Virus record (IMG/VR): IMGVR_UViG_3300034061_003631
Location: 1-64,000 of that record
Direction: 5' to 3' (one strand)
DNA from: a virus
DNA: 64,000 bases
Shown here: positions 1 to 57,478 of the stretch, one piece after another
How the letters are laid out: every line of letters begins with the position of its first letter
Numbering within the stretch: position 1 is the stretch's first letter
Made by a program: the position numbers and the translations under genes
The notes under the pieces: generated by a model
Databases searched by the model: none
What the model was told of the DNA's origin: nothing
What the model saw: only the letters and a program-made list of their open reading frames with translations

Positions 1-673
1 GGCCCCAGTCTCTTTTTGCTTTTAAGTTACCAAGTACAAGCTCATTGGCCAAACCAAGTTTGATTTTGGCTGCTTGTAAAGCAACTTTATTTGTTACGAA
101 ATTAATACCTCTTCTCGGAGATTCATGGTTAAAAAGAATACCAGAGCAAACAAATAATCCATAAGATTGAGCGTAATTTCTGCATAGGGTATGGGCGTAC
201 AATTTAGCACAACCATATGGGCTTACTGGGATCATCGGTGTCGTTTCTCTTTGAAAGCCATCTGGATCTGAAGAATTTCCAAACATTTCTGAGGTTGCAG
301 CATGATAGACTTTAGAATGTGGAGAAAATCTTCTTACTGCCTCTAAAACGGCAAGCGTACCACCACCATTTACATCTAAAGTATATTGTGGTAACTCAAA
401 AGAAATTTGAACGTGAGACTGTGCAGCCAAATGGTAAATTTCATCTGGTTGCAATTTTTGTATTGCGCTTTCTATACTTATTGGATCTGTTAAATCCGCA
501 TAATGCAGTGTTATTAAATTTTTATCGTGAAGATGTTGAATTCTTGTTGTTTGAGATTCGGGAACAGAATTTCTTCTAATTGTTCCGTGTACTTCATAGT
601 TTTTTTCAATTAAAAACTCTGCTAAGTACGAAGCATCTTGTCCATTGGCGCCAATTATTAAAGCTTTTTTCAT
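1..673 (-). CDS. gmd: GDP-mannose 4,6-dehydratase, N-terminal part (runs off the window)
   Basis: The first 224 residues of a short-chain dehydrogenase/reductase are present; the C-terminus lies outside the window. The family converts GDP-mannose to GDP-4-keto-6-deoxymannose, the common precursor of GDP-fucose and GDP-colitose. Visible are the nucleotide-binding loop GANGQDA at residues 8-14, the TSEMFG segment and the SPYGCAK active-site segment that carries the catalytic Tyr and Lys. The usual GMD loop is GxxGQDG; here the last Gly is Ala, as in some other members. The start is the ATG 13 nt after the stop of the preceding GDP-fucose-synthase-like gene, so the two are probably co-translated. 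The function is well supported by motifs and by the two neighbouring pathway genes. Confidence 0.9.
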   Translation of the reverse strand, partial: MKKALIIGANGQDASYLAEFLIEKNYEVHGTIRRNSVPESQTTRIQHLHDKNLITLHYADLTDPISIESAIQKLQPDEIYHLAAQSHVQISFELPQYTLDVNGGGTLAVLEAVRRFSPHSKVYHAATSEMFGNSSDPDGFQRETTPMIPVSPYGCAKLYAHTLCRNYAQSYGLFVCSGILFNHESPRRGINFVTNKVALQAAKIKLGLANELVLGNLKAKRDWG

Positions 674-686
674 ATTATACTTTGTA

Positions 687-1631
687 TTAGTTTCTATCAT
701 AATTTTCTCTATTTGCCATATACCAGTTTATTGTTTTGGAGATACCTTCATTTAAATTAATTTTAGATTCCCAACCAAGTTTATTGAGTCTTTCATTACT
801 TAACTTTCTAAGTGGTGTTCCGTTTGGTTTACTAGTATCCCAAACAATTTTTCCAGTGTAACCCACTTTTTCTTTTATTGTTTCTGCCAATTCCTTTATT
901 GTAACATCCATTCCCGTTCCAACGTTAATAATGTCTGACTCATTATAGGTATTCATTAAAAATACACAAGCATCTGCCATATCATCTGAGCAAATAAATT
1001 CTCTTGTTGGTGTGCCATCGCCAAAACATGTTACCGTAGGTAAATTGTTTTCTTTAGCATCAATAAATTTTCTAATAAGAGCTGGAATTACGTGACACTT
1101 TTGAATATTAAAATTATCATTTATTCCATATGCATTTGCTGGCATCAATGAAATGCAATTGAAACCATATTGTTGTTTATAATATTGACACATTTTTAAA
1201 CCAACAATTTTAGCCAAAGCATAACCAGCATTGGTTTCTTCCAACTCACCCGTCATCAAATATTCTTCTTTAATTGGTTGTGGTGTGATTTTTGGATAAA
1301 TGCATGCTGATCCTAAAAATAATAGTTTTTTTGTTCCAGTAAGATGGGCGCTGTGTATTACATTATTTTGTATTTGTAAATTGTCGTATGTAAACTCTGC
1401 TGGGCATTCTTTATTCCAGCCGATACCACCCACTTTAGCAGCACACAAAAATACATATTCGGGCTTTTCTTTATTAAAGAAATGCCAGACAGCCAACTGA
1501 TCTCTCAAGTCCATCTCTTGGCGTGTTCGTTTAATAATGTTTGTATAGCCTTTTTCTTCTAGTTTTCTTACTATTGCTGAACCTATTAAACCTCTATGTC
1601 CAGCCACAAATATTTTTGAATTTTTATTCAT
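687..1631 (-). CDS. fcl: GDP-L-fucose synthase or GDP-L-colitose synthase-like epimerase/reductase
   Basis: This is a 314-residue NADP-dependent SDR, close to the length of E. coli WcaG/Fcl. The family 3,5-epimerises and 4-reduces GDP-4-keto-6-deoxymannose to GDP-L-fucose; the related ColC does the same on the 3-deoxy intermediate to give GDP-L-colitose. Visible are GHRGLIG at residues 11-17 and the catalytic set Ser108 (GSACIYP), Tyr137 and Lys141 (YALAK). The start has an AAGGA Shine-Dalgarno 5 nt upstream. It lies between gmd and a ColD-like gene, so the colitose role is as likely as the fucose role; sequence alone does not separate them. Confidence 0.85.
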   Translation of the reverse strand: MNKNSKIFVAGHRGLIGSAIVRKLEEKGYTNIIKRTRQEMDLRDQLAVWHFFNKEKPEYVFLCAAKVGGIGWNKECPAEFTYDNLQIQNNVIHSAHLTGTKKLLFLGSACIYPKITPQPIKEEYLMTGELEETNAGYALAKIVGLKMCQYYKQQYGFNCISLMPANAYGINDNFNIQKCHVIPALIRKFIDAKENNLPTVTCFGDGTPTREFICSDDMADACVFLMNTYNESDIINVGTGMDVTIKELAETIKEKVGYTGKIVWDTSKPNGTPLRKLSNERLNKLGWESKINLNEGISKTINWYMANRENYDRN

Positions 1632-1632: not shown

Positions 1633-2793
1633 TTATTCCTTTATAATTGTTTCATTTACAATGTTTGCAATGTATTTGATATCTTCTTCTGTCATATCCG
1701 GATTATTTGGCAAATATAATCCATGATTATGGATTATGTCTGAGAACGGAAATACTTGCAAACCAAATTGTTTATAATAAAATGGTTGCCGAGACATACT
1801 GCCGCAAATCAACGGACGACATTCAACATTTCCATTTTGTAAATTGTTTGCTATTTTGCTTTTATTTGGGTGAATTATGGGATATGCAAAATTACTAACA
1901 AAATCAGAGTATTTTATTTTCCAATAATCATTTTTAATTAAAGAATCATACAATAAAAAGTTTTGATATCTTTTTATATTTTTTTCTTTTAATGTTTTGA
2001 GTTGATTGATTCCCAAAAATGCTTGAACATCTGTTGCTCTTAAATTAAATCCCGGATAATAAAAAGTATAAAAATTTCTAAAATCATCTATATTATTTTC
2101 GGCTTGCAATTTTTCTTTTGTTTCTTTAGAAAGATCACGGCTCCATCCATGAGATCTAATTGATTTTAATATTTCATATAATTCAAAATCGTTAGTGCAA
2201 ACAAAACCACCTTCTATTGTAGAAAAGTGGTGGCCGAAGTACGTTGAAAACGATGACATTAAACCAAAGGTTCCGGTTTGTTTTCCTTTGTATTCTGTTC
2301 CAACGCTTTCGCAAGAATCTTCAAGAAGAATTACATCATATTTTTTACAAATATTTTGTATTTCTTCCATTTTATTTGGAAAGCCCAACACATGTACTAA
2401 AATAACGCATGCTGGATTGTGTTCTTTGCAAAGTTTTTCAAAATACTCTATATCTAATCCCAAAGTGTCTTTATCAGTTTCGCAAAGAATGGGCTCCAAT
2501 CCAAGCTGAATGGCTGGACTAATTGTAGTAACCCACGATACGCAGGGTACAATAATTTTATTATTTTTTAGTTTGTTGCTAACCTTTAAAGCATATACCA
2601 TAGCTAAATTAGCGGAGGATCCGGAATTAAGGAATACTGCATGCTTGACCCCAAGCCAATTAGCCCACTCACTTTCAAATTGTTCGGTTAATTTGCCTTT
2701 AGTTAATTGCGGGTAGGTTTTTAACCAATCACACAATTGATCTATTTCATTATTTGAAATGGTGTCTTTTACAAGTTTTATTGTTTGTCGCAT
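1633..2793 (-). CDS. colD: ColD-like GDP-4-keto-6-deoxymannose 3-dehydratase (PLP fold, DegT family)
   Basis: This is a DegT/DnrJ/EryC1/StrS-fold PLP enzyme of 386 residues from the ATG at 2793; a TTG 15 nt upstream extends the frame but is less likely. The fold is shown by the NSGSSAN phosphate-binding loop and the EDSCESVG segment that holds the PLP-interacting Asp. The usual Schiff-base Lys is absent: the segment reads FGHHFSTIEGG and, with this start, His188 occupies the Lys position. A His there is the signature of the sugar 3-dehydratases ColD and E1/RfbH, which remove the 3-hydroxyl instead of transaminating; from memory, the base in E. coli ColD is also His188. It overlaps the upstream epimerase gene by 16 nt. 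Confidence 0.82.
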   Translation of the reverse strand: MRQTIKLVKDTISNNEIDQLCDWLKTYPQLTKGKLTEQFESEWANWLGVKHAVFLNSGSSANLAMVYALKVSNKLKNNKIIVPCVSWVTTISPAIQLGLEPILCETDKDTLGLDIEYFEKLCKEHNPACVILVHVLGFPNKMEEIQNICKKYDVILLEDSCESVGTEYKGKQTGTFGLMSSFSTYFGHHFSTIEGGFVCTNDFELYEILKSIRSHGWSRDLSKETKEKLQAENNIDDFRNFYTFYYPGFNLRATDVQAFLGINQLKTLKEKNIKRYQNFLLYDSLIKNDYWKIKYSDFVSNFAYPIIHPNKSKIANNLQNGNVECRPLICGSMSRQPFYYKQFGLQVFPFSDIIHNHGLYLPNNPDMTEEDIKYIANIVNETIIKE

Positions 2794-3794
2794 ATGTATT
2801 TTTGCCAAGAAATTGTTTTTTCGATTCCTTCTTCAATTTTAATAAATTGTGGTTTACCAAATTCGTTTGTATATCTTTTTAAACTTAGATTTACAGCTTT
2901 TGGATTCCCAGACAATGCATTTTTATCATCTTTAGGAATAGAAAGACTACAATTTAATTTATTACTTATCTTGGAAGCCAACTCACTTATTAAAATTTTA
3001 GAATCTCCGCATACATTATACACTGTATTTTTTCCATGTAAAGTAATATTAAATATCATTTCTACCAAATCCATAACATAACCATATGTTCTCATGGACA
3101 TTCCGCTGTCTAAGAGTGTTATCTCGCCTTGCTCTAGACCTTTTTGTATAATGCTATGCATGACTCTAGAATCATTTATTCTGGTTCCAGGACCGTAAGC
3201 CAAACTAATCCTAGCAATTTTTACATCAAATCCTTTGTCTTTATAAGCGTGACATATGGTTTCACCGCATCTTTTACTTTCAATATAACATGAGCGAGGA
3301 TGATCTGGTGTGGTGGTTCCGATCTCTTCTTCTGTTATGTTTTCCTTGACCAAACCGCTATAAATTTCACTGGTACTACAAAAAACAAATGTGCCGTTTG
3401 GTTTTAGTAAATTAAAAAGATTATTAGTTGTTTCTGTATTTAATTTTATGGTATTTAACTTATCGCCAGTAAATTTTTGTGGCTGGGCATATCCTGCAGC
3501 ATGAATGATCACATCAAATTTTTCATTTACTTCTGCAATTGTTTTTGCATCTGTAAGGTTTCCAAAAATAACATTGCATGTTTCAAACAAATTTGATATT
3601 TTTTTATCTAGTTTAGAATTGACCCAGCAAAATATTTCTAGATCTTTTTTCTTTTTTAGCTGTACCAGAGTTGCAACAATGTGAAGCCCGATTAGACCAG
3701 ATGCGCCGGTAATCAGTATTTTTTTATTTGCTAGTTTAGAAAAATCAATAGAATTGATTGTTTTGTCTGCGTCTTTATAAATTATTTCAAGCAT
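2778..3794 (-). CDS. NAD(P)-dependent sugar epimerase/dehydratase (extended SDR)
   Basis: A 338-residue extended short-chain dehydrogenase. It has the dinucleotide loop GASGLIG at residues 30-36 and the catalytic Tyr171/Lys175 pair (YIESK), preceded by an STSEIYS segment. The overall pattern resembles UDP-glucuronate decarboxylase or dTDP-glucose dehydratase relatives, but the substrate cannot be fixed. It overlaps the transketolase C-terminal gene upstream by 13 nt and the ColD-like gene downstream, so it is a coupled member of the sugar operon. Confidence 0.8.
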   Translation of the reverse strand: MLEIIYKDADKTINSIDFSKLANKKILITGASGLIGLHIVATLVQLKKKKDLEIFCWVNSKLDKKISNLFETCNVIFGNLTDAKTIAEVNEKFDVIIHAAGYAQPQKFTGDKLNTIKLNTETTNNLFNLLKPNGTFVFCSTSEIYSGLVKENITEEEIGTTTPDHPRSCYIESKRCGETICHAYKDKGFDVKIARISLAYGPGTRINDSRVMHSIIQKGLEQGEITLLDSGMSMRTYGYVMDLVEMIFNITLHGKNTVYNVCGDSKILISELASKISNKLNCSLSIPKDDKNALSGNPKAVNLSLKRYTNEFGKPQFIKIEEGIEKTISWQKYICDKQ

Positions 3795-4657
3795 TCCAAT
3801 ACCCTTTTATTTATGCCAACCTCATCCATTTCGATATTAGCATCGTGCTGTTTTTTTGTGCCGTAGTTTGTTAAAAATTTACGAGGAATTCCTATATTGT
3901 ATAATTTATATTTTTGTCCTTCTAATGCCTTTGTTATTAAATAATTTGTAGTTCCTTCATAAAAAGGTTCACAAATTATAATAATCTCGTTGCTATTTTG
4001 CATCAAAGTATCGGCATCAAAAGGTCTTACTGTTGTATAATACAGAATCGTAACATCTAAGTCTTTTGTGGCATTCAATACCGATTGTAAAATATTTCCA
4101 TAACATACAATTGTTGCTTTGGATCCCTTTTTTACAACAATTGCTTTTCCAAAAGAAACTTCAAATTCTTCAGTATTTTCAAATTCACTTAATCTAAAGT
4201 AAGTAGGGTTTCCATTATTGTAACTAACTTTTAATAATTTATCAAAATCTGCTGATGTTCCGGGACACACTATTTCCATATTAGGTATAGACAGCAAGCA
4301 GGAAATATCTGCTGGGCAGTGGTGGGTGCATCCGAGAGATGCATAATCATATGACGCACCAACACTGATAAAATTACCATTTAAACATTGATAACCAAAA
4401 TCGACCTTTAGCTGCTCCAGAGCTCGTTCTACGATGAACGGTGCGATGGTGTGTACAAATGGAATTAAACCCGTCTTGGCCAGTCCTGCTGCCACACCTA
4501 TCGTGGCCTGCTCAAGGATTCCTATATTGTAGGCTCTGGATGGAATGTTTTTTAGTTCATTTCTGAAACCAAATACTCCTATATCCCCAAGAAGCAGACA
4601 AGTTTTTTCATTTGAATATAAAATTTCTTGTATAGATTTTGTAAATTGTTTTCTCAT
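3782..4657 (-). CDS. Transketolase-like protein, C-terminal half (pyrimidine-binding and C-terminal domains)
   Basis: A 291-residue protein corresponding to the PYR and C-terminal domains of transketolase. Segments typical of the domain include GILEQATIGVAAGLAKTG, with the Glu that contacts the thiamine pyrimidine ring, and a C-terminal Rossmann-like half. It pairs with the adjacent N-terminal half: the stop of that gene and this ATG share one base (TAATG). Split transketolases occur in archaea and in sugar-biosynthesis clusters. Here the pair probably transfers a ketol unit to a nucleotide-sugar intermediate or supplies an unusual sugar; the substrate is unknown. Confidence 0.85.
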   Translation of the reverse strand: MRKQFTKSIQEILYSNEKTCLLLGDIGVFGFRNELKNIPSRAYNIGILEQATIGVAAGLAKTGLIPFVHTIAPFIVERALEQLKVDFGYQCLNGNFISVGASYDYASLGCTHHCPADISCLLSIPNMEIVCPGTSADFDKLLKVSYNNGNPTYFRLSEFENTEEFEVSFGKAIVVKKGSKATIVCYGNILQSVLNATKDLDVTILYYTTVRPFDADTLMQNSNEIIIICEPFYEGTTNYLITKALEGQKYKLYNIGIPRKFLTNYGTKKQHDANIEMDEVGINKRVLECLK

Positions 4658-5391
4658 TAATTTAGCTCACCGATAAAAATATTCAACTCATCAATATTTG
4701 GAGACTTGTGATGCCACTCTGGATTATTCTCCATCACTTTAATGCCTTTACCTTTTATGGTATTTGCAAGAATAAAAATTGGCTTGTCTTCTGATGTATG
4801 AGAAAAAGCATCAATCAATTGTCGTTGATCGTGTCCGTCTACTTCAAGACAGTCCCAATTAAATGATTTAAATTTTTCTTTTACATCATCAATTTTTACT
4901 GCTCTATCTCCTGATCTGTTGTGGTCCAATACGCAATAAAGATTGTTTAGTTTGTGGTGTGATGCTAGCATAGCAGATTCCCATATAGAACCTTCGTTCG
5001 CTTCTCCATCACCTATTAAGACAAAAACTTTATTATCTTTATTTTGTATCTTATATCCCATTGCCATTCCAACAGCTATTGGTAATCCGTGGCCCAACGA
5101 ACCAGTTGATGTCTCTACCGATTCTGTTTTATTGCACGGATGGCCACCAAGTTCTGAATTAAAATCACAAAAACTGTTTATATCGCATTTCAGTAAATTA
5201 AAATTATTTAATACAACATAAAGCCCTAAAGATGCATGCCCCTTGGACAATATAAATTTATTGTTTGTGTTTGTAATAAATTTACCGTAAAGAACATATA
5301 AAATATCAAGAATAGAAAGAGAGCTTCCTATATGCCCCTCTTTCTTTTTATGAGCTAGCTCTAATATCTTTTGTATCAGGTGTTTAGTCAT
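4657..5391 (-). CDS. Transketolase-like protein, N-terminal half (TPP diphosphate-binding domain)
   Basis: A 244-residue protein matching the thiamine-diphosphate-binding half of transketolase. The motif GDGEANEGSIWE begins at residue 127, followed about 27 residues later by DHNRSGD, giving the GDG...N magnesium/TPP signature. HKKKEGHIGSS near the N-terminus and the GSLGHGLP segment are also typical. It overlaps the upstream DUF4254-like gene by 4 nt (ATGA) and the C-terminal half by 1 nt, which points to a stoichiometric heteromer. Confidence 0.88.
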   Translation of the reverse strand: MTKHLIQKILELAHKKKEGHIGSSLSILDILYVLYGKFITNTNNKFILSKGHASLGLYVVLNNFNLLKCDINSFCDFNSELGGHPCNKTESVETSTGSLGHGLPIAVGMAMGYKIQNKDNKVFVLIGDGEANEGSIWESAMLASHHKLNNLYCVLDHNRSGDRAVKIDDVKEKFKSFNWDCLEVDGHDQRQLIDAFSHTSEDKPIFILANTIKGKGIKVMENNPEWHHKSPNIDELNIFIGELN

Positions 5392-5747
5392 TTTGTATCA
5401 AAATTTTTATAAACTTTTACACTGTCTTCACGCAATGTTTTTCCATCTTTGATCGCCGCATCAACCATTTTATTAATTGCCTGAACATACATTGGCCTCT
5501 TTTGCTTGAAGCAAATATCAACCTTTCTTTTTATATCAGCCAATTCAGAATCTGTTTTAGCGATACCGGCCATATCTTCTAAGAACCATGTTCTGATGTG
5601 AAGAATCACTAGTTTTTCAATTACTTCTCCTAAATTATCAGAAACGGCTAATTCCAAAGGCAATTCTGGTATCCCGTCTTTTTTATCTAATACTTCTTTT
5701 ACCCTGTGAGTGATTAATTCCTCTATTTTATTTGCTATATCAATCAT
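5388..5747 (-). CDS. Small helical protein, DUF4254-like
   Basis: A 119-residue, mostly helical protein. The central segment (LVILHIRTWFLEDMAG) and the following IKRKVDICFKQKRPMYVQAIN stretch resemble DUF4254 proteins, which occur next to glycosyltransferase genes in polysaccharide clusters; the function is not established. It is embedded in the operon by 4-nt overlaps at both ends. The family assignment is from recalled motif similarity only. Confidence 0.5.
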   Translation of the reverse strand: MIDIANKIEELITHRVKEVLDKKDGIPELPLELAVSDNLGEVIEKLVILHIRTWFLEDMAGIAKTDSELADIKRKVDICFKQKRPMYVQAINKMVDAAIKDGKTLREDSVKVYKNFDTK

Positions 5748-6640
5748 AATATCTCCATAATTTCATTTTGAATTATATTACATATGTGTCCATAATCAAA
5801 ATTATTTGACCAAATTTGTTTTGCTTGTTCTTTTGGCAAATGTTCTGGTAATGCCCATTTACCATCAACCATATAATTTGTAAAAGAAATAAAAGTTTTA
5901 TTTGGATTATATAAGGTTTCTTTGTTATGACAAAAACAAAATGGCCCGCTTCCTTTACCAATTATAATATTGGATTTGGACCCAAGATAAGCAATTTCAT
6001 TTAAATCACCACCATTGGTTTTTATAAAATCCGAAGTATAAAACACATTTGGAAGTTGTATTTTTGATCTATTATCCGTCAATATAAATGCGATATTTTT
6101 ATTTTTGGGTGCTAGCGAAAGTATAATATTATCTAAATTTATATCTGCTGATTGTCCAGATAATACTGGCCCATTTGATATTAAAACATACTTATCGAAT
6201 ATATTATTTTTTAAAAATTCATCAACATGTGTAACATCAAAAAAAGACCAATCTATTTCTGGAATATAAAAATTTATATCCTCTATGGAAATATTTAAAC
6301 ATCTATAAATATTTTGAAATTTTTTATAATTTGTATTTAATGAACAACCCATCATCATTTCTAAATGTTTACCATTTGAAGATCCGACCCAGGTGTTTAC
6401 AAATAATATTTTATTTTCATTATCTACAAAAAATTCATTAGAATTAAAATTAAATAAATTATTATTTTTAAAAATAATGTTTTTTATATCTTTTACTATT
6501 TTTAGTGAGCTTCCCAGTGGCAAATAATATTCAGAATGAATATTTATTTTTTTTTGTAAATCTTTTACAAATTCTCTAGAGTAATGAACATCGCCATTGT
6601 GCCCACCATTATAAAATATCAATGTATTAATTTCACTCAT
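5744..6640 (-). CDS. Unknown protein, possible GT-B-type glycosyltransferase
   Basis: A 298-residue protein not confidently recognised. It begins with a beta-strand and a Gly-rich turn (LIFYNGGHNGDVHYSREF). Near residues 175-235 it has a second Rossmann-like half with an IGKGSGPFCF loop, as seen in the nucleotide-binding domain of GT-B transferases such as heptosyltransferases. The location among glycosyltransferases supports a role in glycan assembly. An alternative is a non-catalytic polysaccharide-cluster protein. Confidence 0.45.
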   Translation of the reverse strand: MSEINTLIFYNGGHNGDVHYSREFVKDLQKKINIHSEYYLPLGSSLKIVKDIKNIIFKNNNLFNFNSNEFFVDNENKILFVNTWVGSSNGKHLEMMMGCSLNTNYKKFQNIYRCLNISIEDINFYIPEIDWSFFDVTHVDEFLKNNIFDKYVLISNGPVLSGQSADINLDNIILSLAPKNKNIAFILTDNRSKIQLPNVFYTSDFIKTNGGDLNEIAYLGSKSNIIIGKGSGPFCFCHNKETLYNPNKTFISFTNYMVDGKWALPEHLPKEQAKQIWSNNFDYGHICNIIQNEIMEIL

Positions 6641-6642: not shown

Positions 6643-7272
6643 TTATTTTTCAAAAATAAATATCCCACATCCATTCCACCAACCGTTTGAATCTTCATAT
6701 CCTTGAAATGAAATATGAGAATGAATTTTTAATTTTAAATCATTAATTGCTCTTATAGTCCCATATTGTACATCTGTCCAAGTCCAGTCATCAACCATAT
6801 AAATAAAAGAATTTGCCATAGAAGGGTAATAATACTTTAATGCCAAATAATGATCTTCTTCTTTATGATCACCATCATAAAAGTACACGTCAATATCTTT
6901 CATGTTTTGTTTTTCAAAATCTATTTTAAAACAATCTGAATCGATCAAATTAACAGGACATTTTAAATTTAAATTCCAATTATTTAAAAAATCATCTTTT
7001 GGTGATCCAAATTGAGAAAAATTATCTATAACCCAATGGTTTAATTTATTTTCATTTCCATTTAAAGCTGCTATTACAGTAGATCCATGCCACACACCAA
7101 TTTCTACATAATTTTTTACAATATCTCTTGATAACAATCTGTTAACAAATTTTTTATATTCTTTTCCAGAAAACCCTTTAATATTAAAAATTTGATCAGA
7201 AATATTATATTGATTTTCATTATTTAATGCATAAAAAACTGAATTTTTTAAGTCGTTTATTCTATTATTCAT
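6643..7272 (-). CDS. Class I SAM-dependent methyltransferase-like protein
   Basis: A 209-residue protein with a Rossmann methyltransferase core. YVEIGVWHGSTV is the SAM-binding motif I, followed by a strand ending in VIDNFS and a DVYFYDGDHKEEDHY acidic loop typical of CmcI/Methyltransf_24-type O-methyltransferases. It probably methylates a sugar of the glycan built by the neighbouring transferases; the acceptor is inferred from context only. Confidence 0.7.
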   Translation of the reverse strand: MNNRINDLKNSVFYALNNENQYNISDQIFNIKGFSGKEYKKFVNRLLSRDIVKNYVEIGVWHGSTVIAALNGNENKLNHWVIDNFSQFGSPKDDFLNNWNLNLKCPVNLIDSDCFKIDFEKQNMKDIDVYFYDGDHKEEDHYLALKYYYPSMANSFIYMVDDWTWTDVQYGTIRAINDLKLKIHSHISFQGYEDSNGWWNGCGIFIFEK

Positions 7273-7297: not shown

Positions 7298-8065
7298 TCA
7301 TCTAAACTGTATATGAGTATCTATTTGCTCGCAATCTATCTCAGGCTTAATTATTCTTACATAGGTTGAAACATTGCTGCTGGTAAATATCATTTTGTCA
7401 CATTTAGATAATGCTATTCCTTCTTTAAAAATATCAATAGCTAATTTATCTTTGTCTTCAAAATTGCAAAATGGTATTGTAACATCAGTGCTACTTCGTG
7501 TAATATTTTCATTTATAAAAAGTTTATCTCCATATTTTTTTCTAAATGAATCTACGATTTTATATTCATCCGTAGCCAAAAAAACATTATTATATTTTCC
7601 AGTTTCTAAATTTTTATCTATTTTTTCAAAATAATATTCATCTGGTAAAATATCACCATGTATTGCGTGGTCTGTTCTTCTTACATGCACACCCAAGGTG
7701 TTTGACTTGAATGGAACTATTTCTGATAAATGATTAAAAATTGGATTTGCGAAGTAGTTACACCGTTTTAATGCATCATTTACTTTTATAATTTTTTCTA
7801 TTGGAGTTATTGGAGTATAGTATTGGTGACTAAGATCAAAAACACTTAGTGTCTTTGACCACTGTTCTTCTGTCGGTGGAACAGTTTGTTTAAATATAAA
7901 TTTATCAAAAAGATTTTCATTTACATTATTTTGGTAGGTCTGTGCTTTCCATATAAAATAAAAACTGTTTATATTATTTTCATACAGATGCAATAAGCTG
8001 GCTGCTATGAGATTAAAACACGATAATAATCCACCAGTCCTTCTTTCTATTAAAAGATAAGCCAT
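7298..8065 (-). CDS. GT23/NodZ-like fucosyltransferase
   Basis: A 255-residue protein carrying HVRRTD at residues 127-132, the GDP-fucose-contacting motif of alpha-1,6-fucosyltransferases (FUT8/NodZ superfamily). It is followed by FLATDEYK and a C-terminal FTSSNVSTYVR segment that resemble the second and third conserved regions. The protein is shorter than FUT8. A GDP-fucose, or possibly GDP-colitose, donor fits the gmd/fcl/colD genes in the same operon. Confidence 0.7.
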   Translation of the reverse strand: MAYLLIERRTGGLLSCFNLIAASLLHLYENNINSFYFIWKAQTYQNNVNENLFDKFIFKQTVPPTEEQWSKTLSVFDLSHQYYTPITPIEKIIKVNDALKRCNYFANPIFNHLSEIVPFKSNTLGVHVRRTDHAIHGDILPDEYYFEKIDKNLETGKYNNVFLATDEYKIVDSFRKKYGDKLFINENITRSSTDVTIPFCNFEDKDKLAIDIFKEGIALSKCDKMIFTSSNVSTYVRIIKPEIDCEQIDTHIQFR

Positions 8066-8066
8066 A

Positions 8067-8825
8067 TTACTCCTTTACCTGCAATACCATTTTATTAAAT
8101 GATTTAAAAGTTTTAAAAGATCCACTGTGTGTATATGATGTAAAATACGTTTCTTCTTCTAAACCAAAACATCTATCCAATTTAATTGGAGCGTGTATCG
8201 GCATTATTTTATTTTGACACAGTTTTGTAATCATACAATCATTTGGACCAACATAACCATTCTCTTCTATATAGTCACACATTAACTGGGCTCCAGCCCT
8301 AGTCAACAAATATGCAGCCAATCCCTCACACAATAAAGGCAACTGTGCTTTGTACTCAATCAGATTATCATTTTTTTGTTCAACAAATGGTTGTCTATAT
8401 AAAAATTGTTTAGATTGGTTGTGTGCGGTAACATTTTGAAGATTTATAAAATACAAATCATCACAAATTAATGATTCAAAAAATTCTATATTTGCATTTG
8501 GTTTTGCATCATCTTCGCAAATTAAAATACTTAAATCGTTTGTATTTAAAAAAGCTTTCCAAAGTTTATAGTGGGCTATATAAGCAGCAATCTCTCCAAA
8601 TCTGATCCAATTTCTATTCGTATTTTCTAATAGTTTATCCTCATTAATTTTTATTTTATTATTTTCAAATAAAATATAATGAGTACCATTTTCTTCAATA
8701 AATGAACATTCATTTAAAGCTACACCGCTTTTAAATTCAAAATTAATATTATATTCATTGAAAGATTTGGTTATTTTTTCTTGTCTTTCTTTAGCTTCTG
8801 GTAATGTAATTATTTGAACTTTCAT
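8067..8825 (-). CDS. Glycosyltransferase family 25-like (LPS-type)
   Basis: A 252-residue protein with the GT25 pattern. The N-terminus is a strand and turn, VQIITLPEAKERQEKI; the middle has GEIAAYIAHYKLW and then ILICEDDAKPN, the acidic metal/nucleotide-sugar motif. GT25 members add galactose or related sugars to lipooligosaccharide. It overlaps the upstream gene by 4 nt. The donor sugar is not predictable. Confidence 0.75.
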   Translation of the reverse strand: MKVQIITLPEAKERQEKITKSFNEYNINFEFKSGVALNECSFIEENGTHYILFENNKIKINEDKLLENTNRNWIRFGEIAAYIAHYKLWKAFLNTNDLSILICEDDAKPNANIEFFESLICDDLYFINLQNVTAHNQSKQFLYRQPFVEQKNDNLIEYKAQLPLLCEGLAAYLLTRAGAQLMCDYIEENGYVGPNDCMITKLCQNKIMPIHAPIKLDRCFGLEEETYFTSYTHSGSFKTFKSFNKMVLQVKE

Positions 8826-9688
8826 AATGAAATTGTTTGTTTAATTTGATTTTTTATTTGCTCATATTTTTCATTTATATTATAATGAAAAATTGGACTA
8901 TTATGAATAGTTTGATATAAACTTTCATCATTGTCTACCATTTTTACGTATTCCAAAACATCATGTATCGAATTAAAATTATTTACATAAATAAAACTGT
9001 TTGGATTAAAATCTTTTAATACATATTCCGATCCCCAATAAATTGGTATGCAGCCTGATGTTTTTGCTTGTAAAATTTTTTCAGTAACATAACCCAATTT
9101 ATTAGTATTTTCATATGCCATGCAAAATTTATAAGGTGAAATTACGTAATATTTTTTTAATTGATTTCTTTCGTGATCCCCATTTCCAAAAGGTAATCCA
9201 AAACCATCTGTTTTTTTATATGTGTTTAAGGTTTGCCAAAATTCAATTCTATTTTTATGCACTGCAGAAAATGGTGTTATACAAAAACTTGTTTTTGGTG
9301 TATTATACCATTCATTATTTTGCAAATTGTTTACATTAACTGGAAGTATAGGATTTTGATTAGATACTAGATTATATCGATTTATATAGATCATCCACAA
9401 AGGAAGTCTTATATTACCTCTATTTAAATCTGTTGGATCAAAAGTAAAATGATATTCAGCAGTATCATAAAATGGATCTTTTGGTTCTGCTATGTGTGAT
9501 ATTAATTTTGTTTTTGATCTATCTAAATTTGGTGGTACTAAATTTTCTCCAATCAAACACAAATTAGATTCGTAAGGATTTGTTGTATAACTAAAATCTT
9601 TACCATAAATATCTTGAAATAAAGATTTAAAAAAGTTATCTTCGTAATTAAAATCTGGCCAAAATCCGTATATTGATAATTTAATCAT
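8822..9688 (-). CDS. GT10 alpha-1,3/1,4-fucosyltransferase
   Basis: A 288-residue protein with the full GT10 donor-binding block at residues 187-219: KFCMAYENT, then GYVTEKI, then GCIPIYWG. This block binds GDP-fucose in bacterial and animal alpha-1,3-fucosyltransferases. The length suits bacterial GT10 enzymes without heptad repeats. It overlaps the second GT10-like gene by 8 nt. Donor use fits the GDP-deoxyhexose pathway in the same operon. Confidence 0.88.
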   Translation of the reverse strand: MIKLSIYGFWPDFNYEDNFFKSLFQDIYGKDFSYTTNPYESNLCLIGENLVPPNLDRSKTKLISHIAEPKDPFYDTAEYHFTFDPTDLNRGNIRLPLWMIYINRYNLVSNQNPILPVNVNNLQNNEWYNTPKTSFCITPFSAVHKNRIEFWQTLNTYKKTDGFGLPFGNGDHERNQLKKYYVISPYKFCMAYENTNKLGYVTEKILQAKTSGCIPIYWGSEYVLKDFNPNSFIYVNNFNSIHDVLEYVKMVDNDESLYQTIHNSPIFHYNINEKYEQIKNQIKQTISL

Positions 9689-10502
9689 TTGCTATGCTAT
9701 TAAAAATATAATCATCAGCTGTAGTAAGATTGATAACTTTTTCAAAATTATTTTTTACGTATGGTAAACATTCTTGATATAATTCTGGTGTAAGGTTATC
9801 AAATGTTTCTAGATCGTCAATAAAAATAATACCTCTTGAATCAAAATCCTCTTCTATTGATCTGTCACCATAATAAATGGGAACCGTTCCTGTGGCAAAA
9901 CAATCTGTTATTTTTTCAGTATAATATTTTGGATAAATGCTATTTTCGATTACTATGGAAAACATATAATCTTTTAGACCATCAATTTTATCTGGAAGAT
10001 ATCTATAATCTCTGCCAAAAATATGATCTTGATATTTTGGATTGTTTTTTAGTTTTTCAAATAGCTCCATTCGTTTAATATGGCCAGAAGTAAATTGTTT
10101 AAAACTTGTAATATAAGAACATAACTTATTTTTTTCGTATACTTTTGGCTCTTTTATCCACGGCATGTTTGATGCTGGTGGATTGTATTGAAAAAAATTA
10201 GGATCAATGTTTATTACTCGTCTATCGTTGGTAAATATTTTTTTATAACGTAGTTTTAAAACATCTTTATTTGATGTTATACCCATTAAAATAGATGATA
10301 TAATTTCCGACGATTCCCCCAGCCAACCATATTTTGGCCCAGTGTATCCATCATTTAAATATCTAAAAATAGCATCGTCAAAATATACAACAGGTGCATT
10401 TTGTTCTGGATATTTGTTGAATACCCATTGAAATGTTTTTGGTGGATAATTTAAACAAGAATGTGTAGTAAAAGCGTTAGTAAAAATATTCAACGTATTC
10501 AT
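9681..10502 (-). CDS. Second GT10-like fucosyltransferase
   Basis: A 273-residue protein with a divergent GT10 block at residues 180-213: FSIVIENS, YYTEKITDCF, GTVPIYYGD. The N-terminal acceptor domain is unlike that of the adjacent GT10 protein, so the two probably attach the same donor to different acceptors rather than being a recent duplication. It overlaps the upstream GT11 gene by 4 nt. Confidence 0.8.
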   Translation of the reverse strand: MNTLNIFTNAFTTHSCLNYPPKTFQWVFNKYPEQNAPVVYFDDAIFRYLNDGYTGPKYGWLGESSEIISSILMGITSNKDVLKLRYKKIFTNDRRVINIDPNFFQYNPPASNMPWIKEPKVYEKNKLCSYITSFKQFTSGHIKRMELFEKLKNNPKYQDHIFGRDYRYLPDKIDGLKDYMFSIVIENSIYPKYYTEKITDCFATGTVPIYYGDRSIEEDFDSRGIIFIDDLETFDNLTPELYQECLPYVKNNFEKVINLTTADDYIFNSIAND

Positions 10503-11284
10503 ATAATCACCCAGTCTTTACAATATATATCAGACCATTTTTGAATGTTGGTTTTTTCTCCAAACCAAGATGCGGGTGATATTACTTTATTGGTATTTGA
10601 TAGCCATGCACCCCACCAACTAAAAGTACTATTTCCTATAATGTGATAGTCACAAAGACTCATTAAACACATATCTGTTTTTTCATCAAGATTTTGACCT
10701 AAGTTTTTATTTCTTCCATTATTTTTTAAAACATCGTAAACTTCTAATGGTGTATCACTAAAAATTACATATGGTATATCTTTAGGTAAAAAGTTTAAAG
10801 CATTTAAATAATAGTCTTCTTTGCATATTGGATGATGTCCTGCCAATAATTTAAAATCTCCAATTCTTACATGAATTGCTATCAAAGGGTCTTTAATTTT
10901 TTTTCTTTTTTCTAAAGCTTCGTCATATACATTATCTTTAAATGTAAATTCTTTTTTAATATCTTCTCTGTAATCTGAAAAATATTTTTCACTTTGAAAA
11001 TAACCTCTTATTTCCGTATTATCTTTTACATTAAAAACTTCTTCATTGTAATCCCAGCTAGGGGCTTCATATAAATATGAAGGTAAAAAATTAGAACAAT
11101 CTTTTGCACTTAAATTTTTAAAATATTCTGGTAATGTAAAATTATAATATGGATTTGTGTGTTTATTTTTGTAAGGTACCCCAAATTCATAATTATTTTT
11201 TTTAGCTACTGAATATAAACAGGCATATTGAAACATTTGATTTCCAGTTCTGCCGTGTACACCTAAAGTTTTAAATGATATCAT
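10499..11284 (-). CDS. GT11 alpha-1,2-fucosyltransferase
   Basis: A 261-residue GT11-type protein. It has GRTGNQMFQYA near the N-terminus, HVRIGDF at residues 138-144 (the HxRxGD fucosyltransferase motif) and the diagnostic GNSTFSWWGAWL near the C-terminus. GT11 enzymes transfer fucose from GDP-fucose in alpha-1,2 linkage. It overlaps both neighbours by 4 nt. Confidence 0.9.
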   Translation of the reverse strand: MISFKTLGVHGRTGNQMFQYACLYSVAKKNNYEFGVPYKNKHTNPYYNFTLPEYFKNLSAKDCSNFLPSYLYEAPSWDYNEEVFNVKDNTEIRGYFQSEKYFSDYREDIKKEFTFKDNVYDEALEKRKKIKDPLIAIHVRIGDFKLLAGHHPICKEDYYLNALNFLPKDIPYVIFSDTPLEVYDVLKNNGRNKNLGQNLDEKTDMCLMSLCDYHIIGNSTFSWWGAWLSNTNKVISPASWFGEKTNIQKWSDIYCKDWVII

Positions 11285-11916
11285 TGAAATGTTGTATTTC
11301 TGTTTTCTAGAGGGCGATCAGTAAGCATTTGCCATTTATTGGAACTTTCCCTGTCGTCACATTGATAAATTAAAGGACTATTTGGTGTATAAACTTTAAA
11401 CTGGGTTTGTATTCCGGCTGTTCCAACATCCCAAGGTTTATTCAAAGTATAAAGACAAAACTTCCCAACTTCTGACATAGCTTGCCTATAATTTTGTGTT
11501 ACATATAAAATAGCATGTGCTGCTAATATGCCGCCAATTCTTAAATAATTTTCATCATGTTTACATGATCCATAGTAAATATTGCCATGTGAAATCCCAA
11601 GATAAACACCATCAGCATCATCTGGAATTTCTATAACAGGATTAAAATTGTCTGCAAACTCTACGTCATCTTCCAAAATGAGAAGTGGAGTAGAATACTT
11701 TGCGTCATCTAAAATTTCAATATGAGACATTCCACACCCTCTAAAATGGGCAATACTTTTATCTGTATTGGGGGGAGGTGGAATTACAATTCCTGGTTTT
11801 CTGTGTGTATTTTTAAAACCAAATTTTTGAAATCGTTGTTCCATAGTTTCAGCATTTTTCTTTGCTGAATCTAAATTTATCCAGACTACTGGAATTTCAC
11901 GCAAATCAATAATCAT
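11281..11916 (-). CDS. GT25-like glycosyltransferase, first gene of the glycan operon
   Basis: A 211-residue protein with VVWINLDSAKKNAETMEQRF at the N-terminus and LLILEDDVEF around the middle, the GT25 acidic motif. It is the promoter-proximal gene, with an AAAGGA Shine-Dalgarno and a near-consensus sigma70 promoter upstream. It resembles the other GT25-like gene at 8.1-8.8 kb only in the core motifs. Confidence 0.72.
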   Translation of the reverse strand: MIIDLREIPVVWINLDSAKKNAETMEQRFQKFGFKNTHRKPGIVIPPPPNTDKSIAHFRGCGMSHIEILDDAKYSTPLLILEDDVEFADNFNPVIEIPDDADGVYLGISHGNIYYGSCKHDENYLRIGGILAAHAILYVTQNYRQAMSEVGKFCLYTLNKPWDVGTAGIQTQFKVYTPNSPLIYQCDDRESSNKWQMLTDRPLENRNTTFQ

Positions 11917-11932
11917 TTTAGTCCTTTCAACA

Positions 11933-11960
11933 ATTATAGATCACTCTAAAGAAATGTCAA
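11933..11960 (-). promoter_or_regulatory. Sigma70-type promoter of the glycan operon
   Basis: On the minus strand TTGACA (11955-11960) and TATAAT (11933-11938) are separated by 16 nt. This is a perfect host-type promoter placed just upstream of the first glycosyltransferase gene. No other comparable promoter was noticed in the overlapping gene chain, so it may drive the whole 11.9 kb. Confidence 0.8.
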
Positions 11961-11970
11961 GATTATTTAT

Positions 11971-11998
11971 TTGACTTTACTCTAGAGTACTTTAATAT
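11971..11998 (+). promoter_or_regulatory. Sigma70-type promoter of uvsY-uvsW with internal palindrome
   Basis: TTGACT (11971-11976), a 16-nt spacer and TAATAT (11993-11998). The spacer contains the perfect palindrome ACTCTAGAGT (11979-11988), a possible operator; a partial copy ACTCTAAAG lies at 11943-11951 inside the divergent promoter. Only about 12 nt separate the -10 box from the uvsY ATG. Confidence 0.65.
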
Positions 11999-12010
11999 AC
12001 ATCTTAAAAG

Positions 12011-12448
12011 ATGAATCTAGAGAACCTTAAAGAACTTATTAATAAAGACTCTCAAATAGACTCTACAGAGTTAGGAATAGAGTCTCTTAAGATACCTCAA
12101 ATACACTCAAAGTATCTTACAATTTTAGCAGATGTCAAATTACTTTTGACCAAATATCAAAATGATTTGGCTGTTTTAAAATTGCGTAAATGGAAAATTT
12201 ATACCGGGAAAGTTTCAAGAGAAGAACTTGAAGAATGGAAGGAAGAACCTTCAGATTTAACATTACTAAAAAGTGATGTTGAACAATTTGTGGAAGCAGA
12301 TCCAAAAGTTATAGATTTAAAATCTAAAATAGCAGTTACAGAAGTAAAATTAAAAATGGTTGAAGAATACATACGTTCACTCAATAATAGAAATTTTATG
12401 ATAAAATCTGCCATCGAATGGCATAAAATGATGAATGGTATAGCATAA
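12011..12448 (+). CDS. uvsY: UvsY-like recombination mediator
   Basis: A 145-residue protein, close to the length of T4 UvsY (137). It shares the T4 pattern: an early IDST motif, a SKYL segment, Y-x-GK at the middle and a helical C-terminus with IRSLNNRNFMIKSAI, comparable to IKSRGFAIK in T4. UvsY loads the UvsX recombinase on gp32-coated single strands. It directly precedes uvsW, as in many T4 relatives. Confidence 0.8.
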   Translation: MNLENLKELINKDSQIDSTELGIESLKIPQIHSKYLTILADVKLLLTKYQNDLAVLKLRKWKIYTGKVSREELEEWKEEPSDLTLLKSDVEQFVEADPKVIDLKSKIAVTEVKLKMVEEYIRSLNNRNFMIKSAIEWHKMMNGIA

Positions 12449-12455
12449 ATATTAT

Positions 12456-13955
12456 GTGGACATTGAAGTTGAATCTATTGATGAAGTTCGTTACTACATC
12501 AAAACAGAGCAAGCATTAAAGAAAGAGTTACGGGACTATTTTTCATTTATGGTTCCAGGTGCTCAATATATGCCTATGTTCAAACGCAGACTGTGGGATG
12601 GCAAGATCCGTCTGTATGATATTCTTACATCCACTCTTCCCCGGGGTTTAAAGACTTACTTAAAAAAGTTTTCAGACGAGCGCAAGTATTCCATTTCTTT
12701 CAAAGAAAGCAAAAAAGATCTATGCATAACAACGGAGGAACTTGCTACGCTTTATACTGGACTAAATGTAACGGTGAAAAAGTCTTCTATACAAATGCAT
12801 CCACATCAGTCACAAGCAATCGTCCACGCTATAAACAATCACCGGTGTGTAATTATATCCCCGACAGGCTCTGGGAAAAGTTTAATAATATACGTCTTGC
12901 TCCGATGGCTACTATCCGTAATAAAGCCAGACAGAAAAATATTGATTCTGGTACCTACGGTGGGACTTGTAAACCAGATGGAGTCTGACTTTTTTGACTA
13001 TTCAAAGAATGATCCCAAGTGGAATTGCAGAAAATCAGTACACAAGATTAGTTCAGGGGCAGAGAAAGAAACAAATAAGTCAATCATAGTTTCTACTTGG
13101 CAATCTGTTTATAAACTTCCCAGAGAGTGGTTTGATAAGTTTGATGCAGTGATCTTTGATGAATGCCATCAAGCCAAGGCCGAGTCGATAAACATGATTG
13201 GCCAAAAGATGTCAAAGGCTTGGTTTCGAATCGGAACAACCGGAACCCTTGATCAAGCGCAAGCACATCGTCTAAGCATCGAAGGCATCTTGGGACCAGC
13301 CATACAGTTCATACAGACCAAGAACCTCATGAATAAGGGATTACTTGCCACCCTCGGAATCGATGCCATACTGTTGAAGTACACTGAAGCTGAAAAAGAG
13401 TTGCTTAAGAAGCAAAGATACCCAGACGAAATAAAGTGGCTTATAAGTAATGATAGGCGTAATGAGTTCATCAGAGACCTCGCACTTAACACCAAAGGAA
13501 ACACCCTCGTCCTCTTCAACTACGTTGAAGGACAAGGAAAGCCCTTGCACTCTCTCATTAAGGCAGCGGCTGGCGATAGAAAAGTATATCTTATCTACGG
13601 AAAAACGGATGCAGACGCAAGAGAATACATCCGTCGTGTCATCGACACGGAAAAAAACGCAATCCTTGTGGCCAGTTATGGCACTACTAGTGCTGGCATC
13701 AACATTGTTAATCTTGACAATATCATTTTTGCGTCACCTACTAAGTCTGTAATTCGTTTGCTGCAAAGCATCGGAAGAGGCTTACGTGTATCAGCACACA
13801 AGAAGACACTCAAAGTTTTTGACATTGTAGATGATCTTTGCACCAAGTCGTATAAAAATCATGTATTCAAACATTTTGAAGAACGTATAAAGATATACAA
13901 GAAAGAAAAGTTTGATTACAAGATAGTGTCGATGGAACTACCAAAAGATAAATAA
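12456..13955 (+). CDS. uvsW: UvsW-like superfamily 2 DNA helicase
   Basis: A 499-residue helicase that starts with GTG; an overlapping ATG two bases upstream is out of frame and soon closed. The N-terminal DNA-binding domain matches T4 UvsW (LRDYFSF, then LWDGKIRLYD). Walker A is SPTGSGKS at residues 135-142, motif II is DECH, and SIGRGLR is motif VI. UvsW unwinds R-loops and branched DNA and switches replication from origin-dependent to recombination-dependent initiation. Confidence 0.92.
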   Translation: MDIEVESIDEVRYYIKTEQALKKELRDYFSFMVPGAQYMPMFKRRLWDGKIRLYDILTSTLPRGLKTYLKKFSDERKYSISFKESKKDLCITTEELATLYTGLNVTVKKSSIQMHPHQSQAIVHAINNHRCVIISPTGSGKSLIIYVLLRWLLSVIKPDRKILILVPTVGLVNQMESDFFDYSKNDPKWNCRKSVHKISSGAEKETNKSIIVSTWQSVYKLPREWFDKFDAVIFDECHQAKAESINMIGQKMSKAWFRIGTTGTLDQAQAHRLSIEGILGPAIQFIQTKNLMNKGLLATLGIDAILLKYTEAEKELLKKQRYPDEIKWLISNDRRNEFIRDLALNTKGNTLVLFNYVEGQGKPLHSLIKAAAGDRKVYLIYGKTDADAREYIRRVIDTEKNAILVASYGTTSAGINIVNLDNIIFASPTKSVIRLLQSIGRGLRVSAHKKTLKVFDIVDDLCTKSYKNHVFKHFEERIKIYKKEKFDYKIVSMELPKDK

Positions 13956-13976
13956 TAGGGAAGGGAGGACATTCCT

Positions 13977-14660
13977 ATGTCCGATTCGCTTCCTGAGAAT
14001 TCATTCTCGGGCATATTAAGAGTTGTTAAGCTCCTAACAGGAGAAGAAATCGCAGGTCTAGTTAGCGATTCAATGCCCGACAAAATAGCAATTAAGTTTC
14101 CAGCTAAATTAGAAAATTATATGGGAAAAGATTCAAAAGGAAATCCCATTGAATTTGTTAAACTGACTAATTATGCTGCTTCCACTAAATCATTTGAAAT
14201 ATCACTAAACAAATCTGCAATTGTATTCGTAGCGCAGCCTTCTGCAGAATTAGAAAAAATGTATGAAATTTATTTTATGACTGTTCAAACCGATCCAAAA
14301 TCTATTCAAAATAGTATGCCAGAAGGCATGGTCGATGTTGATACGGGTTTACAACTTTTAAATGACTTATTTACAAATGAAGATTTTGTAAATTTTGTAA
14401 ATGACCTTATGGACACCTATGAGGGTGTAGAAATTTTAGCTGATCTGGGTGAAGATGTAGGCGACGAAGATGTAGGCGACGAAGACGAAGAAGAGCCAGA
14501 ATCCTCTAGGACGGGCACCATAGAAGAAGAGCCTGAGCCCCCATCTAAGAAGAAGAAACGCTCTATAATGAAACCTGAGTCCACTAAAATGCCATATAAA
14601 CCAGAGAACCCACCAGAAGATCCTAAAAGCTGGTCAGACAACCCTATGGATTATATGTAA
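13977..14660 (+). CDS. LSm-like beta-barrel protein with acidic C-terminal tail
   Basis: A 227-residue protein with an AGGGAGG Shine-Dalgarno. The first ~90 residues (VVKLLTGEEIAG onward) resemble small Sm-like barrels and align by eye with the 107-residue protein encoded at 47958: both have an EEI motif, a PA-x-L segment and an EL-x-x-Y helix. The C-terminal third is very acidic, then basic and proline-rich. The function is unknown. Genes of this kind recur in marine T4-like phages; that is recalled and was not checked. Confidence 0.55.
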   Translation: MSDSLPENSFSGILRVVKLLTGEEIAGLVSDSMPDKIAIKFPAKLENYMGKDSKGNPIEFVKLTNYAASTKSFEISLNKSAIVFVAQPSAELEKMYEIYFMTVQTDPKSIQNSMPEGMVDVDTGLQLLNDLFTNEDFVNFVNDLMDTYEGVEILADLGEDVGDEDVGDEDEEEPESSRTGTIEEEPEPPSKKKKRSIMKPESTKMPYKPENPPEDPKSWSDNPMDYM

Positions 14661-42196: not shown

Positions 42197-42883
42197 TCAA
42201 ATATTATTTGGTATTTTTATCAAATTGTGTGTAAATAATGTATCTGCCAAAAATTTAGATATTTCGTTATCAGATGGATAATGCAGACCTGCAACGTATC
42301 TACTATAAGCCATATCGTTACAAAATTTGTTTATTTCTAAACTTTTTTCTGGTTTAAAATTTGTTAAAACCTTATTAACTATAAATGAATCAAGTGCGTG
42401 TCCAGAAGGATATGCGGGGTGCATAGCTTCCGATGGCACATTGAATTTAAGTTGTATTCCATAATAGGGAGCAATTTGGTATGGTCTCGCTCTATTAAAA
42501 TGGTTTTTCAGTAACATTAAAATTGGATCGCTTTGATTAAAAAGTTTATGAAAAAATTGTGTTTTTAAATTTAATCCTAAAAATGTTTTGCAAAAATTGA
42601 CATAACATTTTTTTTCATCAATTTCTGCATTTATTGCAAATTCAATTTCTTCTTTTGTTGCATTTGCAGTAACTCTCTCTAAAAATAAAAGTTCATTTAT
42701 AGTCTGTTCACTGGAATTTTTTGGAGGCTTCATTGCAAAAAATTGATTAATTATTCCCGTAGCAAAAAAATAACCAATAATTGGATCTGCGCAAGTTATT
42801 TTAGATTTATCATCGTACAATAAATCGCCATAAACTATTGTGTCAATGGCATTATTTGGTGTATTATATCTATTGTCCAACAT
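42197..42883 (-). CDS. PAP2-superfamily phosphatase
   Basis: A 228-residue protein carrying all three PAP2/haloperoxidase motifs: K126-x6-R133-P134, P159-S-G-H162 and S194-R195-x5-H201-x3-D205. These build the phosphate pocket of phosphatidic acid, undecaprenyl-diphosphate and acid phosphatases. There is no clear multi-helix membrane core, so it looks like a soluble or peripheral member. Phages rarely carry it. A role in envelope lipid or polyprenyl-phosphate recycling for the glycan operon is speculative. Confidence 0.82.
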   Translation of the reverse strand: MLDNRYNTPNNAIDTIVYGDLLYDDKSKITCADPIIGYFFATGIINQFFAMKPPKNSSEQTINELLFLERVTANATKEEIEFAINAEIDEKKCYVNFCKTFLGLNLKTQFFHKLFNQSDPILMLLKNHFNRARPYQIAPYYGIQLKFNVPSEAMHPAYPSGHALDSFIVNKVLTNFKPEKSLEINKFCNDMAYSRYVAGLHYPSDNEISKFLADTLFTHNLIKIPNNI

Positions 42884-46134: not shown

Positions 46135-46165
46135 CTAATTCTTTTTGTGTGACATAGTTTGTACG

Positions 46166-54040: not shown

Positions 54041-54058
54041 CAAATAAAATAAAATCAA

Positions 54059-54868: not shown

Positions 54869-54877
54869 AATACTAAA

Positions 54878-55588: not shown

Positions 55589-55602
55589 ATATACTAACTA
55601 AA

Positions 55603-56262: not shown

Positions 56263-56282
56263 AGTTTTTATATATTTTGTTT

Positions 56283-56290
56283 TATAAATA
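56283..56290 (+). promoter_or_regulatory. Leaderless late promoter (cassette gene 6)
   Basis: A perfect TATAAATA ends 5 nt before the ATG at 56296. Confidence 0.65.
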
Positions 56291-56295
56291 CTTTC

Positions 56296-57000: not shown

Positions 57001-57011
57001 TATATAACAAC

Positions 57012-57470: not shown

Positions 57471-57473
57471 ATA
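57466..57473 (+). promoter_or_regulatory. Leaderless late promoter (cassette gene 8)
   Basis: ATTAAATA, a variant octamer, ends 5 nt before the ATG at 57479. It was accepted mainly because the spacing equals that of the other cassette genes. Confidence 0.45.
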
Positions 57474-57478
57474 AATTT

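Follow-up and report, generated by a model that had tools for sequence, protein, structure and literature searches.

The DNA that we analysed, a window of 64,000 nucleotides covering positions 1 to 64,000 of the IMG/VR virus record IMGVR_UViG_3300034061_003631 (64,010 bases), carries a gene cassette of a T4-like aquatic phage that may well be a complete and exchangeable kit for glycan assembly and would, from an early-type sigma-70 promoter, remodel a surface glycan of the host cell; we hold this reading with about even confidence. The cassette comprises 15 genes, from gmd to gt25b, all on the minus strand and lying between uvsY and gp55. An initial annotation had described a GT23-like gene, two GT10 genes, a GT11 gene and two GT25 genes in an unbroken, overlapping chain, and both Pfam and the coordinates bear this out, although the chain had been placed at 7298-11284, which leaves the second GT25 gene (11281-11916) outside, and the cassette has 15 genes rather than six. 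The six transferase genes, from the GT23-like gene to gt25b, form the promoter-near part of the run and overlap by 4-8 bp or abut (the gap from gt23 to gt25a is 1 bp). In order of transcription they are followed by genes for a methyltransferase, a protein of 298 amino acids (aa), a protein of 119 aa, a split transketolase, a short-chain dehydrogenase/reductase (SDR), a ColD-like enzyme and an Fcl-like enzyme, and finally by gmd. The features are:

2..700, minus strand: gmd, GDP-mannose 4,6-dehydratase, cut by the window edge (342 aa in the related contig L018); 53-54% identity to gmd-type genes of S-SRM01, S-SKS1 and ACG-2014f.
687..1631, minus strand: fcl-like gene, GDP-4-keto-6-deoxymannose epimerase/reductase (putative GDP-L-fucose synthase or ColC role); PDB match to GDP-fucose synthetase at E 3.5e-98, NCBIfam NF047922 at 438.6 bits.
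1633..2808, minus strand: gene for a ColD-like pyridoxal phosphate (PLP) 3-dehydrase, with His for the PLP Lys; best PDB match ColD 2gms, E 2.6e-63.
2778..3794, minus strand: gene for an SDR nucleotide-sugar reductase/epimerase; match to 8v4g, 'putative nucleotide sugar dehydratase', E 8.8e-34.
3782..4657, minus strand: tkC, C-terminal chain of a split transketolase; NCBIfam dxs/transketolase models, top E 9e-24.
4657..5391, minus strand: tkN, N-terminal chain of the split transketolase; PDB 6yak (N-terminal component of a split transketolase), E 1.1e-48, with a GDG...N thiamine pyrophosphate motif.
5388..5747, minus strand: gene for a small protein of 119 aa with no Pfam family, kept in relatives at 62-77% identity.
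5744..6640, minus strand: gene for a probable GT-B glycosyltransferase of 298 aa (a seventh transferase); AlphaFold 2 predicted TM score (pTM) 0.84, Foldseek match to WaaC/GT9.
6643..7272, minus strand: gene for an S-adenosylmethionine-dependent methyltransferase (Methyltransf_24); Pfam 26.4 bits against a cut-off of 26.3, PHROG 1458.
7298..8065, minus strand: GT23-like fucosyltransferase-type gene; Pfam FUT8_N_cat PF19745, 30.6 bits, cut-off 27.6.
8067..8825, minus strand: gt25a, GT25 glycosyltransferase; Pfam PF01755, 66.8 bits.
8822..9688, minus strand: gt10a, GT10 fucosyltransferase-type gene; Pfam PF00852, 69.0 bits, cut-off 23.9.
9681..10502, minus strand: gt10b, GT10 fucosyltransferase-type gene; Pfam PF00852, 37.5 bits, cut-off 23.9.
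10499..11284, minus strand: gt11, GT11-family transferase and second gene of the cassette; Pfam PF01531, 66.5 bits, cut-off 23.9; PHROG 2644, 254.7 bits.
11281..11916, minus strand: gt25b, GT25-type transferase and first gene of the cassette; Pfam PF01755, 24.1 bits against a cut-off of 24 (marginal).
11933..11960, minus strand: sigma-70 promoter of the cassette, TTGACA-N16-TATAAT, 16 bp before the gt25b ATG.
12011..13955, plus strand: uvsY and uvsW, the divergent right-hand border of the slot; PHROG helicase for uvsW, gene order in relatives and isolate annotation.

About 100 related viral contigs were compared with the window. Since the order of the cassette genes is the same in relatives with 50-83% protein identity, chance or an assembly artefact can be ruled out as its origin. 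The cassette proteins have 100% matches on three IMG/VR contigs, and in one of these, L018 (100% protein identity over the shared genes), gmd is directly followed by gp55, gp47, gp46, gp45, gp44 and further replication genes. With gmd thus the last gene before gp55, the cassette is complete, and the suggested search for tailoring genes to the left of the window has nothing left to find. In the isolates Melnitz (Methylophilales) and HTVC008M (Pelagibacter), fewer than 200 bases separate gp55 from a block of uvsY, uvsW and one further gene; the corresponding block of the window (12011-14660) is inverted relative to both, and the cassette of the present clade occupies the space between block and gp55. 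The uvsW gene itself appears to recombine separately, as in L066, where uvsY is 99% and uvsW 78% identical to the window.

An unbiased set, in which loci were fetched by uvsW alone, contained 39 distinct islands with at least 1.5 kb after uvsY. Of the 39 islands, 34 have both gt25b and gt11, with which they begin; gt10b was found in at least 22, gt10a in at least 10, gt25a in at least nine, the GT23-like gene in at least six and all four fucosyltransferase types in at least five, these counts of distal genes being lower bounds, as many contigs end early. The five islands without this root pair have other genes in the slot, which resemble transferases and epimerases (families read by eye). In L048, L060, L068, L102 and L108, uvsY is followed by cassettes that are rooted in different genes, of the MIPKIIHQIWLGDQ type among others. 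As judged by its contents, the uvsY-gp55 slot is a glycan locus with a conserved root and variable later genes. Among relatives, identities of gt25b correlate with those of gt10b (rho 0.62) but not with those of gp23 (0.08), uvsY (0.07) or uvsW (0.07-0.14 over these three), so that cassettes appear to move between phages. The phylogeny of the phage core is thus not that of the cassette.

Selection on the cassette genes is purifying: in a comparison of the window with L006, the ratio of nonsynonymous to synonymous change (pN/pS) was 0.09-0.51 for all 13 genes compared, and 0.13-0.19 for gp23, uvsW and uvsY, values that are rough but clearly below 1, with synonymous sites near saturation. For the lipopolysaccharide (LPS) clusters of cyanophages, Sullivan et al. 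2010 (PMC3037559) left open the option of 'stuffer DNA', and one may likewise consider that the present genes are passengers, or filling for headful packaging, given that gene content differs among phages. Such low pN/pS at strongly diverged synonymous sites, the catalytic motifs retained in nearly all relatives and the retained promoter all speak against this, and we regard it as most improbable.

Apart from the cassette promoter, no perfect TTGACA/TATAAT pair was found in the window. In 47 distinct relatives this promoter is retained with no more than one mismatch in either hexamer, and it stands back to back with a uvsY promoter. Between the two divergent promoters (11917-12010) these 47 relatives have a conserved GTCAA(A/C)TAAATA element, running into TTGACA, which could be an operator or a hybrid early/late box. 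At five genes, gp23 and gp22 among them, the late promoter TATAAATA is found 5-25 bp ahead of the following ATG; none precedes the cassette, and a late promoter for it was thus rejected. Since the 11 occurrences of this box in the window are close to the 8.9 expected, only its position before late genes is informative. Transcription of the cassette would accordingly seem to be of the early type.

As for the acceptor, no cassette protein is likely to have a transmembrane segment, the top 19-residue hydropathy being below 1.5 except for one value of 2.03 (an apparent Rossmann strand of the SDR). Because the proteins look soluble and no flippase, polymerase or ligase accompanies them, assembly of the glycan would take place in the cytosol, on an acceptor that is already there, be it a lipid-linked or LPS-core glycan of the host, a protein or DNA. 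Soluble enzymes without membrane export genes would also fit direct glycosylation of protein, and the cassette might therefore act on virion proteins (capsid, tail, fibres), masking epitopes or changing adsorption. The best argument for this is the gt25b-gt11 root pair, constant across the clade, as expected of a phage-borne acceptor; in addition, GT25 also takes in protein (collagen) glycosyltransferases. A precedent is the virion glycosylation of some mycobacteriophages, cited in PMC12619734. However, gt25b identity does not track that of gp23, the promoter of the cassette is of the sigma-70 type whereas late TATAAATA boxes stand at capsid genes, and the root pair is missing from the slot in five of the 39 unbiased islands, which leaves modification of the virion a rather unlikely explanation. 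The initial annotation had offered virion and host LPS alike; the early-type promoter, the lack of a late one and an exchange unlinked to capsid phylogeny lead us to favour the host surface as the probable acceptor. A third acceptor may be considered as well, since phage glycosyltransferases are known as DNA modifiers and a variety of glycans on DNA has been described (Pyle et al. 2024, cited in PMC12619734): the glycan could hypermodify phage DNA against host restriction. GT10, GT11 and GT23 are, however, typical of cell-surface and glycoprotein glycans, and the window genes that were examined, in an incomplete genome, included none for base modification, so that we think this highly improbable.

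Both GT10 proteins belong to their family by profile and by donor motif (ENTNKLGYVTEK and ENSIYPKYYTEK in the window). The nearest PDB entry for each is the H. pylori FucT 2nzw (E 2.1e-20 for gt10a and 2.2e-8 for gt10b), and EN..Y.TEK was found in 15 of 15 relatives of gt10a and 25 of 28 of gt10b. For the GT23-like protein, profile, motif (HxRR, present as HVRRTD) and fold agree, its AlphaFold 2 model (pTM 0.80) having NodZ with GDP-fucose and FUT8 as best Foldseek matches (TM 0.53-0.64). The EDD motif of GT25 is present in 14 of 14 relatives of gt25a and 47 of 47 of gt25b; membership is clear for gt25a and at threshold for gt25b, which shows 32-40% identity to P-SSM2 and S-CAM7. The protein of 298 aa, nearest in Foldseek to WaaC/GT9 heptosyltransferases (E 9e-6, weak TM of 0.48), is by its model a probable glycosyltransferase of the GT-B fold. 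In L129 the GT23-like gene lies in two pieces (8411-8847), a pseudogene or an assembly error.

The gt11 case is less straightforward. Its Pfam match spans positions 34-296 of the 298 of the profile, and no solved-structure match was found for the protein. Motif I reads HVRIGD instead of the full HxRRGD, and the second Arg is replaced, mostly by a hydrophobic residue, in 41 of 42 GT11 relatives of the clade; the named cyanophages S-SRM01, S-SSM7 and S-SCSM2R keep HVRRGD forms. In FUT8 the first Arg of the motif is essential and the second less so, which for gt11 is a lead and not a test. The gene is therefore assigned to GT11 by profile and not by activity, its exact activity being uncertain. 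Apart from this second Arg, the motif comparison revealed none of the degraded donor sites that had been named as evidence against the initial proposal.

It had further been proposed that the GDP-deoxyhexose donors of these families match the adjacent pathway. The families, the pathway and the kept donor motifs of GT10 and GT23 agree with this, with a reservation for GT11 and its HVRIGD, and the donors probably go beyond fucose. Gmd and the Fcl-like protein together imply GDP-L-fucose as a putative donor; the latter has GDP-fucose synthetase as its nearest PDB entry and falls short of the cut-off of 500 bits of the NCBIfam equivalog, and it could alternatively fill the ColC role. In the ColD-like protein, GHHFSTIEGG aligns with SHHIATMEGG of ColD. 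The catalytic residue is His, at a site that reads N in 3b8x and is Lys in aminotransferases of the ColD/DegT fold. Since it is closest to ColD and has this His, we read the protein as a 3-dehydrase, and GDP-colitose as a likely product of the cassette. The transketolase is of the split-chain kind, with tkN, nearest to 6yak, and tkC as separate, adjacent chains. In three lineages (the window, L006 and L129) tkN, tkC and the SDR gene occur together at close identity, and they are absent as a block from L009, L131, L135 and L099, all of which keep ColD and Fcl; it is this co-occurrence, alongside retained ColD and Fcl, that suggests joint action on the ColD product to give a branched sugar. A limited literature search found nothing on transketolase-made branched nucleotide sugars. 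With a ColD-like enzyme and a split transketolase present, fucose is probably not the only sugar transferred.

Remodelling of the host surface may thus be pictured as follows. Gmd would form GDP-4-keto-6-deoxymannose, which the Fcl-like enzyme would convert to GDP-L-fucose, while the ColD-like enzyme would give a 3-deoxy intermediate that the Fcl-like enzyme may convert to GDP-colitose; the split transketolase and the SDR may attach and reduce a two-carbon branch. From these sugars the soluble GT25, GT11, two GT10, GT25, GT23 and GT-B enzymes and the methyltransferase would assemble a short, branched, deoxyhexose-rich oligosaccharide, probably begun, in the order of addition, by GT25 and GT11 as the conserved root pair. 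As acceptor, a lipid-linked or LPS-core glycan of the host on the cytoplasmic side would be the most likely, and the purpose would be to alter the host surface early in infection, hiding receptors from competing phages. Several points weigh against this. Attachment to LPS would need host machinery, there being no ligase, flippase or polymerase in the cassette; GT11 is without its second motif Arg, and the Fcl-like gene scores below its equivalog cut-off. The stretch that separates the divergent promoters contains AATAAATA, which agrees with the late box at 7 of 8 positions, and, obviously, an early-looking promoter is no proof of early expression, while enzymes made early could later modify virion proteins.

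The presence of four fucosyltransferase types, the headline of the initial annotation, is not new and is ordinary for large T4-like aquatic phages. The freshwater T4-like Synechococcus phage S-SRM01 (NC_070963, 191-205 kb; PMC8557907) has gmd- and fcl-type genes, NodZ/GT23, GT10, two GT11, a methyltransferase and further glycosyltransferases in a compact cluster, although this adjoins hli, ferredoxin and psbA genes and not uvsY/gp55, has one GT10 where the window has two, encodes proteins 31-57% identical to those of the window and showed no detectable ColD or split transketolase. GMD, GDP-L-fucose synthase, an alpha-1,2-fucosyltransferase and NodZ also occur in the single Synechococcus phage S-SCSM1 (PMC9602691), in contrast a marine cyanophage with an additional POFUT-like gene and a GDP-mannose-3,5-epimerase, and S-SCSM2R carries a set related to the window cassette. 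The LPS clusters of P-SSM2, S-SSM7 and S-SM2 (PMC3037559) share nucleotide-sugar genes and transferases (T4-GC 260 and 266 co-occur in all three, and GT10, GT11 and GT25 are present in S-SM2 and S-SSM7), but they lie near hli03, phoH and tRNAs, in phages of known host genus, and the stretches of S-SM2 and S-SSM7 examined gave no GT23-type match. The present cassette resembles such clusters in its contiguous nucleotide-sugar genes and several transferases and differs in location. Synechococcus phage ACG-2014f (NC_026927) has gmd, fcl, a ColD-like DegT gene (35%) and GT11 in a row, but no match to GT10 or GT23 and, in the stretch examined, none to the split transketolase. Finally, the host-recognition cluster of pelagimyophages (PMC7029224), also a hypervariable island with LPS-type transferases and read as recoating the host, differs in being a tail-fibre region between VrlC and gp14, with GT8 as its most frequent glycosyltransferase family. 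What is distinctive here is the fixed slot in the replication module with its kept promoter, the gt25b-gt11 root, the nested conservation from root to tip, and the module of ColD and split transketolase.

The phage is a T4-like (Kyanoviridae-type), aquatic virus of bacteria, with gp23, prohead, portal, terminase, baseplate and gp32-type genes at 14-45 kb of the window. Its closest uvsW match is in a Methylophilales phage (46%) and its closest gp23 match in a cyanophage (55%); the cyanophage marker psbA was not found in the window or on contigs of 22 relatives, up to 126 kb. A gp23 search of bacterial genomes for the host gave no matches, the ColD-like gene as a query for host or donor gave a single distant match (Polaribacter, 25%), and the window has no tRNA. 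From 59200 to 64000 the GC content rises from about 0.35 to 0.55-0.59; an assembly chimera at this jump near 59 kb was ruled out, as homologues of the GC-rich region share contigs with cassette phages. In the same region the pattern TTGACa-N17-(TACAAT or TATCAT) occurs seven times on the plus strand and twice on the minus strand, mostly with 6 bases to the following ATG, as if each early gene had a promoter of its own. At 53579-59015, at least five proteins have a common N-terminus like MDYLTNYYKNLCEQLQxKINxLxxxLxE(A/S), resembling a capsid-targeting leader cut by the prohead protease, which would point to many proteins that are internal or injected. Also present are an IMP dehydrogenase/GMP reductase-family gene (46145-47200), which could affect the guanine nucleotide pool feeding GDP-sugars, a PAP2-type phosphatase gene (42197-42883), with a possible link to lipid-carrier recycling, and a gene (48677-52291) for a Gly-rich and Cys-rich protein of 1204 aa, without Pfam match and with a late promoter in front, possibly an adhesin.

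The 2010 comparison of T4-like cyanophages (PMC3037559) did not decide whether phage LPS clusters have a function. The present clade makes the question testable, with dozens of distinct islands in a single slot that combine purifying selection, a retained early-type promoter, a constant root and swapped tips. We tentatively suggest, while thinking it on the doubtful side, that lytic phages have a 'glycotype' locus in the uvsY-gp55 slot, in which GT25-GT11 would prime a constant acceptor and entire distal modules would be exchanged among phages like O-antigen clusters, the module of ColD, split transketolase and SDR making a previously undescribed GDP-linked branched 3,6-dideoxy sugar. The ColD and split-transketolase module may yield a new nucleotide sugar.

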